Assembly: GCA_947471905.1 (NCBI GenBank)
Contig: CANIZT010000006.1
Coordinates: 1 to 37,299, forward strand
From: Verrucomicrobiaceae bacterium
Lineage (GTDB): Bacteria; Verrucomicrobiota; Verrucomicrobiia; Verrucomicrobiales; Verrucomicrobiaceae
Direction of reading: 5' to 3'
Length of the DNA stretch: 37,299 nucleotides
Shown here: positions 4,107 through 25,131 of the stretch, in pieces
How positions within the stretch are numbered: the stretch's first letter is position 1
Layout: every line of letters starts with the position of its first letter
The notes under the pieces: generated by a model
Database searches by the model: none
Seen by the model: the letters and a program-made list of their open reading frames with translations, nothing else
Told to the model about the DNA's origin: nothing
Program-made: the position numbers and the translations under genes

Positions 4107-6080
4107 ATGAGCGACCCAATCAGTCACGAGTGCGGCATAGCAGTAGTGCGGCTGAAAAAGCCGCTGGGATACTACTATCAAAAATACGGCAACGCGCTAT
4201 ACGGACTCGATGCGTTGCAGGCGCTCATGACCAAGCAGCGCAACCGCGGCCAGGACGGCATCGGCATCGGCTGCAGCAAGCTGGGCATGCCCGCCGGTCT
4301 GCCCTACATGTTCCGCGTTCGCAGCACGGAGAGTGTGGAACGCATCGCCCAGGTCTTCGATGACGAGCGCAAGGAGTTCAAACGCATCGCCCGCCGCATC
4401 GACAAGCAGCGCAAGGATGAGCGCGACCAGGAAGGTCGCGAGTTTGTGTCCTTTGAGGACGACCCTGAAGCCATCAAACGTGAATTCGAAATGGCCGGCG
4501 AGATTTACATCGGCCACCTGCGCTACGGCACCAGTGGCGACTTTGGCAAAGGCGCGCTGCATCCCTACATGCGCCGCACCACCTGGCCCACGCGCACGCT
4601 CATGGTGATGGGCAACTTCAACCTCACCAACACCCGCGAACTCAACGATGTCATGATGAAGCGCGGGCAGCACCCCGTCTTCGGCACTGACACACAGAGC
4701 GTGCTCGAAGAGATCGGCTTCCAGCTCGATGAGGCACACACGAAGCTCTACCACGTCCTGCGTGACTCCGGTATGCCGGGGCAGGACATCCCCGCACGCA
4801 TCAGCGCGGAGCTGGATGTGACCGCGGTCGTCAAAGAGTCCGCCAAACGTTGGGATGGTGGCTACAGCATCGTCGGCGTCATCGGCAACGGCGATCTCTT
4901 CGCCATGCGCGACCCCAGTGGCATCCGCCCTTGTCACTACTACGAGAACGACGAAATCTTTGCCCTCGCCTCCGAACGCGTCGCGCTGATGTCCGTCTTC
5001 GGCGTCGGTGAAGATGACACCCGCGAAATCCCGCCCGCCCATGTGGCCGTGATTAAGGCCGACGGCAGCATGAGCATTCAGCAATTCACTGAGCCGCGCG
5101 AATTCAAGCCTTGCTCCTTCGAGTGCATCTACTTCTCACGCGGCAACGACTCCGCCATCTACAGCCAGCGCAAGGCACTCGGTGAGCAGCTTGTGCCGCA
5201 GGTCGTGAAGGCCATCGACAACGACTTCGAGCACACTGTACTCAGTTTCATCCCAAACACCGCCGAGACGGCCTACTTCGGCTTCCTCGACGGCCTGCGC
5301 AAAAGCCGGCGTGGAGTCGTCAAAGAGGCGCTCATGGACATGCTCAAGCGTGGCGAATTTGATGAAGCCAAGCTCGACGATCTTGTGCTGCGCAACTGGC
5401 CGCGGGCCGAAAAAATCGCCCTCAAGGACATCAAGATGCGTACTTTCATCGCGCAGGAGACCGGACGTGACCAACTCGTCTCCGGCAGCTACGACATAAC
5501 CTATGGCGTCGTCACTCCGAAGGACAATCTCGTCGTCATCGACGATTCCATCGTGCGCGGCACCACCTTGAAGAAAAGTTTACTCCGCATCCTCGCACGC
5601 ACCAATCCGCGCCGCATCATCGTCTGCTCCACCGCCCCGCAGATTCGTTATCCCGACTGCTACGGCATCGACATGGCCGAACTCGGTAAGTTCATCGCCT
5701 TCCAGGCCGCCGTCGGCCTGCTGCGTTCGCGCGGCATGGCGCACATCGTGCGCGAGACATACTTCGCCTGCCAGGCCGAAATGAAAAAGCCCAAGGAAGA
5801 AATGCGCAACGCCGTAAAGGCCATCTACGCACCCTTCACTGACGAAGAAATCTCCGCCAAGGTCGCCCAATTGATCCGCCCCGAGGATACGCCGTGGCAT
5901 GGCGATGTGGAGGTCATTTACCAAAACATTCCCAATCTCCACCGTGCCCTCGGTGCCGAATACGGCGACTGGTACTTCAGCGGTGACTATCCGACACCCG
6001 GCGGCTACTCCGTCGTGAACCAGTCGTTCATTCTCTACTGCGAGGCCAAGGATGGCCGTGCGCACGAAGCGCTGCTGTAG
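4107..6080 (+). CDS. purF: Amidophosphoribosyltransferase, long PurF-type
   Basis: Glutamine PRPP amidotransferase of 657 residues, the first step of purine synthesis: it makes 5-phosphoribosylamine from PRPP and glutamine in the cytosol. The class II (Ntn) glutaminase domain has the conserved ECGI sequence with nucleophile Cys9, the QHNRGQDG-like signature KQRNRGQDGIGIG near residues 44-56, and DPSGIRPC in the middle. The phosphoribosyltransferase domain carries the PRPP loop VVIDDSIVRGTT at about 476-487. The protein is longer than classical PurF (about 500 residues) because of a charged insertion near residues 85-130 and a C-terminal extension, as in the Bacteroidetes/Verrucomicrobia form. 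Cys9 sits behind MSDPISHE, so a short propeptide must be removed for an Ntn mechanism. The true start is the ATG at 4107; an upstream extension would overlap the preceding gene. Some genomes carry this form beside a standard PurF, so its exact role is less certain than its family. Confidence 0.88.
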   Translation: MSDPISHECGIAVVRLKKPLGYYYQKYGNALYGLDALQALMTKQRNRGQDGIGIGCSKLGMPAGLPYMFRVRSTESVERIAQVFDDERKEFKRIARRIDKQRKDERDQEGREFVSFEDDPEAIKREFEMAGEIYIGHLRYGTSGDFGKGALHPYMRRTTWPTRTLMVMGNFNLTNTRELNDVMMKRGQHPVFGTDTQSVLEEIGFQLDEAHTKLYHVLRDSGMPGQDIPARISAELDVTAVVKESAKRWDGGYSIVGVIGNGDLFAMRDPSGIRPCHYYENDEIFALASERVALMSVFGVGEDDTREIPPAHVAVIKADGSMSIQQFTEPREFKPCSFECIYFSRGNDSAIYSQRKALGEQLVPQVVKAIDNDFEHTVLSFIPNTAETAYFGFLDGLRKSRRGVVKEALMDMLKRGEFDEAKLDDLVLRNWPRAEKIALKDIKMRTFIAQETGRDQLVSGSYDITYGVVTPKDNLVVIDDSIVRGTTLKKSLLRILARTNPRRIIVCSTAPQIRYPDCYGIDMAELGKFIAFQAAVGLLRSRGMAHIVRETYFACQAEMKKPKEEMRNAVKAIYAPFTDEEISAKVAQLIRPEDTPWHGDVEVIYQNIPNLHRALGAEYGDWYFSGDYPTPGGYSVVNQSFILYCEAKDGRAHEALL

Positions 6081-22134: not shown

Positions 22135-24336
22135 TCACATCCCCTTCGGCATCCAAGTCTCCAGCTTGCTCACTTCCGCCTTCGCGGAAGAACTCACACG
22201 AATGCCCCATGCATCAAAGAAAGGACCGAGGTTCTTTTTCGTGATCTTGGAGTAGCGCACGAGGAACTGGTCGCGACGTTCGTCATCGCCCTTCGGCGCT
22301 GGGCCGCAGGCGGTGTCATCGAAGCTATAGAGATACTTGCGCCAGCTCTCCCAGCCGAATTCCTGAATGAGTTGAATGTACGTTGTGAGGGCCAGGAAGG
22401 GACTGCTTTTCCAGTCCTGCCACTTGTTGGCGGACTTCTTGATCTTCTTCACGTTTTCCTTCCGCTCCTCATCGGTGATCGCCGGATGGCCGATGAGCCA
22501 GTCTTTTTTCAACACGGCCTCATAGCAGTACATGCCGATGACGTTGTTCGTGACTTCGCCCGTGCCATCGAAGGTGAAGTCGCCGCGCTGATGGTTGTGG
22601 CCGATCTCGTGGTAGAAACCCCAGCCGGGAAATTTGAGTTTGCCGAACGTGACCATTTCCGGTGCGGCACTGGTCGGAATCATAATTGGATAGCCGCTGT
22701 GCATGTAACCAGCGCTGATCTGCACATCAGCCACAATGCGCTCGGGCCGCGTGCGCTCAGCGGTTTCATTGGATACATCGTCCTGCGCTTCGACGACCTT
22801 CTTCCAGAAGGTCATGAGTTCGGTGGGGTTGTTCACGAGGCGGCCGACTTCGGTGGGAAAGGAGATGATGAGCTTGTCGCAGGCCATTTCGGCCCATGGA
22901 GCCGGACGCTGGCGGATTTCTTTCCACTTCGCATCATCATCGACGCCCAGCACAAAGAGCGGAGCAGGCACGCCGTTTTGGATTGTCGCGGTGAAGGGTT
23001 CATCATCCTTCGCGCGTCCTGGAACTTCGACATAGATCAAACCACCGAAGGCGCTGGCCGTTTTGGTCGTCGCAGCGGTCAAAGGCACACTGCGCGTGAT
23101 GTCGGGAGCGCGTTCCCACTTGTCGAGATGATACAACGTGTCGCTGTGACAGCCGATGCGCACAGCGTAGCCTTTGTCGGCCAGTTTCTCGGGCAGGATA
23201 ACGGTGATCGTCTCCCCTGCAGCCGCATACAGTCCAGTGCTCGTCCAGCCAGAAATGGAAGGCGTTACTTTGATCTCGCCAGTGATGCGCGGTGCGCCCG
23301 CAGGCACTTTGCCGGGGAAAGTCTCATGTGCCGGATGCGCGGTCACACCTTCACCCGCCGCAAGACGCAACACCCGCGTCTCCATGCCAAGGCGCAGACG
23401 CTGTGCAGCGTTTTTGTCGGCCGTGAGCGGGTTTTGTGGCGTAGGCACGACCGCATCAGCTCCGGCAGTGCCCAGCGCAGCGAGCACGGCGTTCTTCAAA
23501 TTGCTTCGATCCGGCGGTTGCGCTGCCATGGCGATCTGGATCGCGTTGGTGCCCTGTTTCATCGCGGCAGCGTCGAGCGCAGGTCCGCCTTCGCGTTGCT
23601 TTTTGATCGCGGCGATAGCCTCGGAGGCGTTCATCATTTGCGGCAGTTCGATGCGCGCATCAAAACCCCGCAACTGGTCAAACGCGCTCATGTCGGTGAT
23701 TGCCACGCCCGCAGGCATCAGGGCCTGATTGAGTCCATGCGAGACCGCGAGATCCTTCCCGCCGCTAGTCTGGCTGAAAGCCCAACCCGTCATGGCACCG
23801 ATGAATCCGCCGCCGCCTTTGACAAAGTCCGCCACCGCCGCGCCTTCCTCATCACTGACGACACCTTGCATGTTCATGATGACGACATCGTAGTCGTTGA
23901 GATTCTTCTTCGTCACTTCCGTGAAGACCTCGGCGTTAAAGCCATGCTGTTTGTAGAGAGCGGCAGCATTCACACCTTTGAGGCCCACACGTGGCTTCAC
24001 CTTGTTGCCTGCCCACTTCACGCAGTTCTCCATGAGTTTCGCATGATCACCACCCTCGCCGCCCCCGAGGTAACTGTTGTGACCAAACAAGATGATGCGT
24101 CCCTTCGCATACGCCGCCGCTGCTGCGACCGCGATTTCCACGCCGTCCTTGTCCGGTGCCGACAAAATCGGAAACGCTATCTGGCCCCATATACCAATCG
24201 GCCCCGGTGCACCCGCCTTCGGCACTGATTTGACGCCTTCGAGAATTTTGGCGCGCTCCGCGTTCACGAGCGCAGGCGGCATCTGCGCCTGGGCGATGGC
24301 GCAAAACAGGAGGGAGATGAGAATGGTTGGCTTCAT
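22135..24336 (-). CDS. Secreted M60-type metallopeptidase with GATase1-like N-domain
   Basis: Exported zinc peptidase of 733 residues. The signal peptide is MKPTILISLLFCAIAQA. Residues about 65-215 look like a class I amidotransferase/DUF4159-like flavodoxin fold: GRIILFGHNSYLGGG at 79-93, VVIMNMQGVVSDEEG at 151-165 and FVKGGGGFIGAMTGW at 171-185, with no nucleophilic Cys. A beta domain at about 355-460 precedes the M60/enhancin-like catalytic domain. Its zinc motif is HEIGH at 576-580 with the third ligand Glu594 in TGE, fitting HExxH-x(8-28)-E. M60 peptidases of gut and environmental bacteria cut mucin-type glycoproteins. The order GATase1-like then M60 matches animal TCAF/FAM115 proteins. 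The gene starts 17 bases after the XRE-cupin regulator stop, so the two probably form an operon. The substrate is inferred only from family. Confidence 0.88.
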   Translation of the reverse strand: MKPTILISLLFCAIAQAQMPPALVNAERAKILEGVKSVPKAGAPGPIGIWGQIAFPILSAPDKDGVEIAVAAAAAYAKGRIILFGHNSYLGGGEGGDHAKLMENCVKWAGNKVKPRVGLKGVNAAALYKQHGFNAEVFTEVTKKNLNDYDVVIMNMQGVVSDEEGAAVADFVKGGGGFIGAMTGWAFSQTSGGKDLAVSHGLNQALMPAGVAITDMSAFDQLRGFDARIELPQMMNASEAIAAIKKQREGGPALDAAAMKQGTNAIQIAMAAQPPDRSNLKNAVLAALGTAGADAVVPTPQNPLTADKNAAQRLRLGMETRVLRLAAGEGVTAHPAHETFPGKVPAGAPRITGEIKVTPSISGWTSTGLYAAAGETITVILPEKLADKGYAVRIGCHSDTLYHLDKWERAPDITRSVPLTAATTKTASAFGGLIYVEVPGRAKDDEPFTATIQNGVPAPLFVLGVDDDAKWKEIRQRPAPWAEMACDKLIISFPTEVGRLVNNPTELMTFWKKVVEAQDDVSNETAERTRPERIVADVQISAGYMHSGYPIMIPTSAAPEMVTFGKLKFPGWGFYHEIGHNHQRGDFTFDGTGEVTNNVIGMYCYEAVLKKDWLIGHPAITDEERKENVKKIKKSANKWQDWKSSPFLALTTYIQLIQEFGWESWRKYLYSFDDTACGPAPKGDDERRDQFLVRYSKITKKNLGPFFDAWGIRVSSSAKAEVSKLETWMPKGM

Positions 24337-24353
24337 GGTTGGTTGGAAAAAGT

Positions 24354-24953
24354 TTAGCGGTAAATCACGACGAGAAACACCAGCGCATCGGCCTTGCCTG
24401 TGTTGACGATGGCATGAGGCACGTCGGCGCGGTAGGTGCCGGAGTCGCCCTTGGTCAGTTCGTCGGTATCCTGGTCAGATTCAATGCGGACGCTGCCTTC
24501 CTCGACGGTGAGGAACTCGCGCGTGCCTTCAAAGTGCGGCTGCGAGCGCAGTGCGCCACCAGGACGGAGTCGGACTTCGTAGAACTCGACGTCCTTCTCC
24601 AAGTTCAGCGGCGAGAGCGTGCGGATTTCGTGTTGCTTGTCACTGCGAAAGACTTGGGCGCGGTCACTGGCACGGATGACTTGGATTTTTGACGCGCTAG
24701 CTTCTGCACTTTCGATCAGTTCCTGCAACGTCAGCCCAAAGGCGCGTGCGATGCGAAAGGTAACCGTCAGCGTCGGATTCGCCTTCTCACGCTCGATCTC
24801 GCTGAGCATCGACCGGCTTACGCCGCTGGCACTGGCGAGTTCTTCGAGCGACCAGCCGCGATCTCCCCGCAACTTCTTCACCCGCTTGCCGAGGTTCTCA
24901 TTGATGGCCTCGGGGCTGGGTTCGACGGGGACTGTCTTGGGATTAGCGGGCAT
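24354..24953 (-). CDS. XRE-family regulator with C-terminal cupin
   Basis: Transcription factor of 199 residues: an N-terminal HTH_3 domain (about 18-75, with GWSLEELASASGVSRSMLSEIE as the helix-turn-helix and recognition helix) followed by a cupin_2 sensor domain (about 118-199, RPGG near 130 and an H-x-EGT-type block PHFEGTREFLTVEEGS near 138-153). Such regulators bind small carboxylates, sugars or polyamines in the cupin and usually repress their own operon. I chose the ATG at 24953 because the HTH begins at a usual distance; upstream in-frame codons to 25067 would cover the promoter region. The M60 peptidase gene follows after 17 bases. Two inverted repeats and a possible promoter lie directly in front, fitting autoregulation. 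Confidence 0.92.
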   Translation of the reverse strand: MPANPKTVPVEPSPEAINENLGKRVKKLRGDRGWSLEELASASGVSRSMLSEIEREKANPTLTVTFRIARAFGLTLQELIESAEASASKIQVIRASDRAQVFRSDKQHEIRTLSPLNLEKDVEFYEVRLRPGGALRSQPHFEGTREFLTVEEGSVRIESDQDTDELTKGDSGTYRADVPHAIVNTGKADALVFLVVIYR

Positions 24954-24961
24954 GCAGTGTC

Positions 24962-24993
24962 GATATAACGGACGTTCGTCTTGTAAATTAGAA
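24962..24993 (-). promoter_or_regulatory. Candidate promoter of XRE-cupin/M60 unit
   Basis: On the minus strand TTTACA (24987-24982) could act as -35 and TATATC (24967-24962) as -10, but the spacing is only 14 bases, which is short. If it is used, transcription would start about 24955, a base or two before the ATG at 24953, giving a leaderless message. An inverted repeat sits exactly between the two boxes. Weak prediction. Confidence 0.3.
24968..24979. promoter_or_regulatory. Inverted repeat, candidate operator 1
   Basis: ACGGACGTTCGT is palindromic at 10 of 12 positions, centred between 24973 and 24974. It lies 15 bases in front of the XRE-cupin start codon, between the possible -35 and -10 boxes. 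HTH_3 dimers bind short palindromes of this size, so self-repression is a reasonable guess. Confidence 0.4.
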
Positions 24994-24997
24994 TTTA
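24984..24997. promoter_or_regulatory. Inverted repeat, candidate operator 2
   Basis: TAAATT and AATTTA are perfect 6-base arms around AG. The site is AT-rich in an otherwise GC-rich spacer and lies four bases from the first inverted repeat. It overlaps the possible -35 box of the regulator gene. It could also be simply an AT-rich promoter element for either divergent gene. Confidence 0.35.
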
Positions 24998-25049: not shown

Positions 25050-25131
25050 GAAGGCCTCATAATTCACATGCTCAAATCATGATGCGTTCATATGATGGTT
25101 GACCTGCCCAGCTACGGCGCTAGTTTTAGTC

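Follow-up and report, generated by a model that had tools for sequence, protein, structure and literature searches.

A predicted XRE-cupin regulator of threonine degradation that probably also governs a secreted M60 peptidase in Verrucomicrobiaceae

In E. coli, the threonine degradation genes tdh and kbl are regulated by Lrp, a global regulator that places these enzymes under amino-acid-responsive control. Regulators of an unrelated family, the XRE-cupin proteins, have been described in Pseudomonas, where PauR, PsdR, ErfA and PA0535 combine an XRE helix-turn-helix (HTH) with a cupin domain and act as local repressors of neighbouring metabolic genes through palindromic operators; none of this set is reported there as controlling threonine degradation or a secreted M60 peptidase (PMC7901475). 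At P1', M60 O-glycopeptidases accept only Ser or Thr (PMC13355702), and OgpA, as described in one source, cleaves before O-glycosylated Ser/Thr (PMC7518263). Other enzymes with an M60 catalytic domain are the mucinases AM0627 of Akkermansia and BT_4244 of Bacteroides and the immunomodulating metalloprotease IMPa of Pseudomonas aeruginosa, an O-glycopeptidase of solved structure (PDB 5kdv, 7jtv). O-glycoproteins rich in Ser/Thr are mostly treated as a supply of glycans. The locus described here, from Verrucomicrobiaceae, is one in which, on the best reading of some 60 related genomes, a regulator of threonine degradation appears to have taken a secreted M60 peptidase under control. A paper on such a tdh-kbl/M60 XRE-cupin regulator was not found in the open-access literature searched.

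The window, by which we mean the whole stretch of 37,299 nucleotides that was analysed, carries the two genes on the minus strand, with the regulator 17 bp upstream of the peptidase. Coordinates and Pfam domains bear out the initial annotation, which had placed an XRE-cupin regulator 17 bases from an M60 peptidase. The coding features are as follows.

24354-24953, minus strand: XRE-cupin transcriptional regulator, 199 aa (Pfam HTH_3 and Cupin_2; 39-sequence conservation), with the HTH at ~24717-24881 and the cupin at ~24366-24575
22135-24336, minus strand: secreted M60 metallopeptidase of 733 aa, presumed to be the second gene on a transcript that starts with the regulator (Pfam, structure model, PDB fold matches)
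24286-24336, minus strand: predicted signal peptide, residues 1-17, with the junction AQA/QMPP (by eye)
23620-24285, minus strand: class I GATase-like N-domain without a nucleophile Cys, residues ~18-239 (weak ThuA match, IMPa fold, alignments)
22981-23283, minus strand: M60-like_N, residues 352-452 (PF17291, 80.1 bits)
22204-22974, minus strand: Peptidase_M60 catalytic domain, residues 455-711 (PF13402, 218.7 bits)
22597-22611, minus strand: HEIGH zinc motif, residues 576-580 (alignment)
22555-22557, minus strand: E594 of the M60 motif (alignment)

The regulator has both an N-terminal XRE HTH (HTH_3, 56.6 bits) and a C-terminal cupin (Cupin_2, 39 bits), each above its cut-off, and is likened by domain make-up to the Pseudomonas XRE-cupin repressors. 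Cupin residues H140, E146 and H180 are invariant among 39 sequences. The start is taken to be the ATG at 24953, since orthologs match the protein from its first residue onward and the longer frame, opened by an upstream GTG at 25067, would contain the operator described below. An equivalog test for PuuR (NF007408) failed, at 46.4 bits versus a cut-off of 211.

The peptidase exceeds the curated PF13402 cut-off of 25.8 bits by a wide margin and is a member of family M60. Its HExxH(8,28)E motif is intact, with HEIGH and E594 invariant in an alignment of 16 sequences, and the N-terminus, MKPTILISLLFCAIAQA-QMPP, is by eye that of a typical signal peptide with no lipobox, in accord with its earlier description as a secreted M60 enzyme. 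It is the sole Peptidase_M60 match in its own assembly, which is ~78% complete. A full-length model (pLDDT 83.6) matched the B. anthracis structure 4fca (Z 31), AM0627 (Z 26), BT_4244 (Z 21) and ZmpB (Z 20). The two mucinases have the M60 catalytic domain in common with the peptidase and align only with its C-terminal half (~350-733), leaving the N-domain unmatched, whereas IMPa alone aligns along nearly the whole chain. IMPa also has in common with it the N-domain fold and secretion, yet at 16-17% identity and in another genome context. The peptidase has the IMPa fold and nevertheless lies outside the sequence family NF038322 (ImpA_fam_HExGH; 79.9 bits versus a cut-off of 250). The SslE/AcfD lipoprotein metalloprotease model NF037974 likewise failed (84.2 bits versus 800).

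The GATase-like N-domain without a Cys nucleophile, proposed initially, is supported, and the fold of this region is of the IMPa type. The isolated domain model (pLDDT 89.6) superimposed on IMPa residues 74-302 with Z 16.7 (3.0 A, 204 residues), and ThuA, a class I GATase-like family, matched residues 125-186 at 30.5 bits, just below its cut-off of 33.4. At the presumed elbow, GGGFIGAMTGWAF (GAMTG), neither Cys nor Ser occupies the nucleophile position, and Cys is absent there in family alignments. A GATase identity drawn from PDB matches other than IMPa was set aside, since the class I GATase-like cyanophycinase and peptidase E gave weak matches (Z 5-5.7).

TCAF proteins, to which the peptidase had been compared, carry a GATase-like N-domain. 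TCAF2 has been reported with M60-like_N and Peptidase_M60 domains (PMC11255011), and TCAF/FAM115, compared here through domain names in the literature, thus have both in common with the peptidase, although they are channel-associated factors of animal cells and the protein described here is predicted to be a secreted bacterial enzyme. The peptidase has the order GATase-like N-domain, M60-like_N and M60 of the proposed TCAF-like layout, and this is also the order of IMPa-like bacterial proteins; as nearest known protein, TCAF gave way to the solved bacterial IMPa. The full layout is common in PVC bacteria and others, occurring in Verrucomicrobia, Planctomycetes, Armatimonadetes, Lentisphaerae and other MAGs (34-41% identity in the last four groups). 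The combination of N-domain and M60 is not unusual, and the TCAF angle is ordinary.

What sets the locus apart is the regulator and the DNA immediately ahead of it, where comparison of orthologous loci points to a tandem element.

24958-24994, minus strand: predicted tandem dyad operator, ATTCTAATTTACAAGA-N6-TCCGTTATATCGACA, 37 bp (ortholog footprint, genome scan, PWM)

The element ends 4 bp before the regulator start codon and contains two dyads with centres 21 bp apart. The form common to the genomes compared is TTTCTAATTTACAAGA-N6-TCCGTTATACCGACA, and upstream of tdh, on unrelated contigs, the corresponding element reads TTGCCAATTTACCGGA-N6-TCCAATATACCGACA. A scan of 56 genomes with one degenerate IUPAC pattern (up to 3 mismatches, kbl sites left out of the design) found 59 sites in 28 genomes, versus 0 for the reversed control pattern. 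The regulator accounts for 25 of these upstream sites, tdh for 21 and kbl for 10; all lie on the coding strand, and most end 4-13 bp ahead of start codons; the other three precede a tdh remnant (G010), precede a gene leading into the kbl operon (G004), or stand on a short contig ending in the metH-regulator intergenic region (G020). The own genome has exactly two sites, the one in the window and one before tdh on another contig (C1:28685-28721). In contrast with the Pseudomonas set, with its adjacent targets, the predicted arrangement here is a tandem double dyad with candidate targets both adjacent and distant, in trans.

A PWM gave the same picture. It was trained on genus sites, so that genus scores are partly circular while those of control, kbl and M60 sites are not; the window operator scored 51.6 bits (next best within the window <6), true sites 34-53, and unrelated M60 loci (539 kb) at most 8.0, with none at 9 or above. 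Across 747 kb of related loci, every match of at least 12 bits was at the regulator, tdh/kbl or M60. The operators of diverged genera have drifted too far for the PWM to recognise. No RNA element in the window reached the Rfam gathering score.

Several relatives instead have the regulator back to back with two other genes, one of zinc alcohol dehydrogenase type and one for a PLP enzyme. From a reading of their sequences, these are taken to be tdh (threonine 3-dehydrogenase) and kbl (glycine C-acetyltransferase). In several genera the regulator is a neighbour of tdh-kbl, and it is divergent from them in the most distant holder found, from another family of the phylum. The own genome has kbl at a distance of 1.3 kb downstream of tdh. 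Several genomes, this one among them, encode an uncharacterised, secreted-looking protein (cluster c11; L273 3803-4579, L276 1228-2025) in the interval from tdh to kbl, and this protein may belong to the threonine regulon.

Gene content tells the same story of association. The regulator is present in 46 of 59 family genomes, and tdh in 43 of these 46 and in 0 of the 13 others (Fisher p = 1.4e-10, over genomes that are phylogenetically non-independent); kbl follows the same distribution except in two low-completeness assemblies. At least six lineages of the M60 tree lack the regulator, and each of them lacks tdh as well (G046; G050; G017; the G003/G023/G037/G039 clade; G006; G007); the count is approximate, as the tree follows M60 rather than species and some of the assemblies have gaps. 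Three genomes (G010, G040, G044) have lost tdh/kbl and kept the regulator-M60 pair. Regulator-less G007 is the sister of G044, and a tdh remnant stands behind the operator in G010, which points to loss of tdh as the first step and decay of the regulator as a later one. The regulator has been tied to tdh and kbl for longer, and more closely, than to M60. In G007, at ~5116-5290 of locus L083, a degenerate operator of 13.8 bits and an apparent remnant of the regulator C-terminus lie just before M60.

The pairing with M60 was surveyed across relatives that include Prosthecobacter, Brevifollis and other Verrucomicrobiaceae. Of the 46 regulator-positive family genomes, 39 have M60 downstream of the regulator in the same orientation, so the pairing is not chance, and the earlier proposal of an adjacent ligand-sensing-type regulator, here with its HTH_3 and Cupin_2 domains, holds beyond this one genome. 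Neither of the two findings named at the outset as counting against the initial annotation, an N-terminal region unlike GATase1 folds or a separation of the genes in relatives, therefore applies. Among 49 M60 loci, the regulator was not found beside M60 in more distant bacteria, and the pairing looks restricted to Verrucomicrobiaceae. Measured between aligned ends, the spacing is 21-121 bp in 27 genomes, ~400-700 bp in eight and 1.4-1.5 kb in four, the last with another gene between; in the eight, where the gap is partly repeat sequence, the case for a single transcript is therefore weaker. Gaps of ~550-700 bp occur in L109, L108, L107, L112, L116 and L101, and GCGCCTTTGCG-type repeats in L112 and L116 suggest an inserted repeat element. 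The intervening gene encodes a Gfo/Idh-type oxidoreductase with a twin-arginine-like leader in L079 (5696-6910) and L080 (5758-6972), and a metallophosphoesterase-like protein in L072 and L099.

The reading that we consider probable is that of an autoregulated XRE-cupin repressor of threonine degradation that senses threonine or a metabolite of the pathway and also controls a secreted, Ser/Thr-directed M60 glycopeptidase. The regulator would bind the 37-bp operator, probably as dimers on the two dyads, and the targets would be the regulator with downstream M60, tdh and, in many relatives, kbl; in the own genome kbl would be expressed following tdh. The dyads end just before start codons, likely within the promoter region, which fits repression. 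Because tdh and kbl fall in the predicted regulon, the cupin ligand, left open by the first reading, is most likely L-threonine itself or a compound that arises as it is degraded. With threonine available, the repressor would release the DNA, and both the Tdh/Kbl pathway (threonine to glycine and acetyl-CoA) and the secreted peptidase would be made. As M60 enzymes need Ser/Thr at P1', a secreted M60 under a threonine-degradation switch makes nutritional sense, and extracellular attack on Ser/Thr-rich glycoproteins might thus be coupled to use of the threonine set free. We more tentatively extend this, at somewhat under an even chance, to a dedicated Verrucomicrobiaceae threonine regulon in which O-glycoprotein threonine would induce its own harvesting and catabolism through one XRE-cupin sensor.

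Such a regulon would give an orphan regulator a ligand class and a set of targets, and would provide tdh-kbl with a dedicated, non-Lrp regulator in a phylum with few mapped regulons. It would tie the mucinases of family M60 to the catabolism of amino acids instead of sugars, and the wiring suggests that the peptide backbone, especially threonine, is the prize.

That the peptidase belongs to the regulon at all is the point on which a rival account differs: the regulator may serve threonine degradation only, with M60 a read-through neighbour that has no functional link to threonine. The deeper association with tdh/kbl speaks for this account, as do the nine family genomes, and bacteria of many phyla, that have M60 but no regulator, the three regulator-positive genomes (G055, G009, G038) in which M60 sits at another place with no operator, and a co-occurrence of M60 with the regulator that is by itself only weakly significant (p = 0.06). 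We nevertheless judge it unlikely, given the same-strand adjacency in most holders and the behaviour of M60 where the pair is interrupted. In G018 and G033, close relatives that count as one event, the Gfo/Idh gene intervenes and a separate operator stands ahead of M60 (22 and 26 bits by PWM), while no operator precedes M60 in regulator-less genomes apart from the 13.8-bit remnant in G007. Moreover, G010, G040 and G044 keep the pair when only the regulator and M60 are left as apparent targets. A self-contained inducible mucin or glycoprotein unit answering to a glycan or glycopeptide signal, close to the initial annotation's view of the locus, would agree with the action of M60 relatives on O-glycoproteins and with the habit of XRE-cupin regulators of controlling their neighbours, and is very improbable, as the operator likewise precedes tdh and, in relatives, kbl, the regulator's presence tracks tdh rather than M60, and no third gene was seen conserved beside the pair in the family loci compared.

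The element itself might be bound by another regulator, or mark a special promoter class, with the XRE-cupin gene a mere target. Its position, mostly 4-13 bp before start codons, means that it probably overlaps the promoter, as this would predict; we hold it improbable, since genomes with sites have 1-4 of them, too few for a general promoter, six regulator-less genus genomes scanned have none, and the regulator adjoins tdh-kbl in several genera. Control of the divergent methionine synthase gene metH in the window, whose start is ~110-180 bp from the operator, was considered as the regulator's main role and rejected as extremely improbable: metH adjoins the regulator in one subclade only, and it has a conserved element of its own, kept where the regulator is absent from the locus.

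25064-25094, minus strand: conserved element before metH, CATATSAACGCATCATGATTTGA / CATATSAACGCATCATGATTTGAGCATGTGA (conservation)

Of 28 genomes scanned, 11 have this metH element, possibly a methionine-related operator, with no more than one copy each. It lies upstream of metH also in L286, L287 and L289, loci that have no XRE gene.
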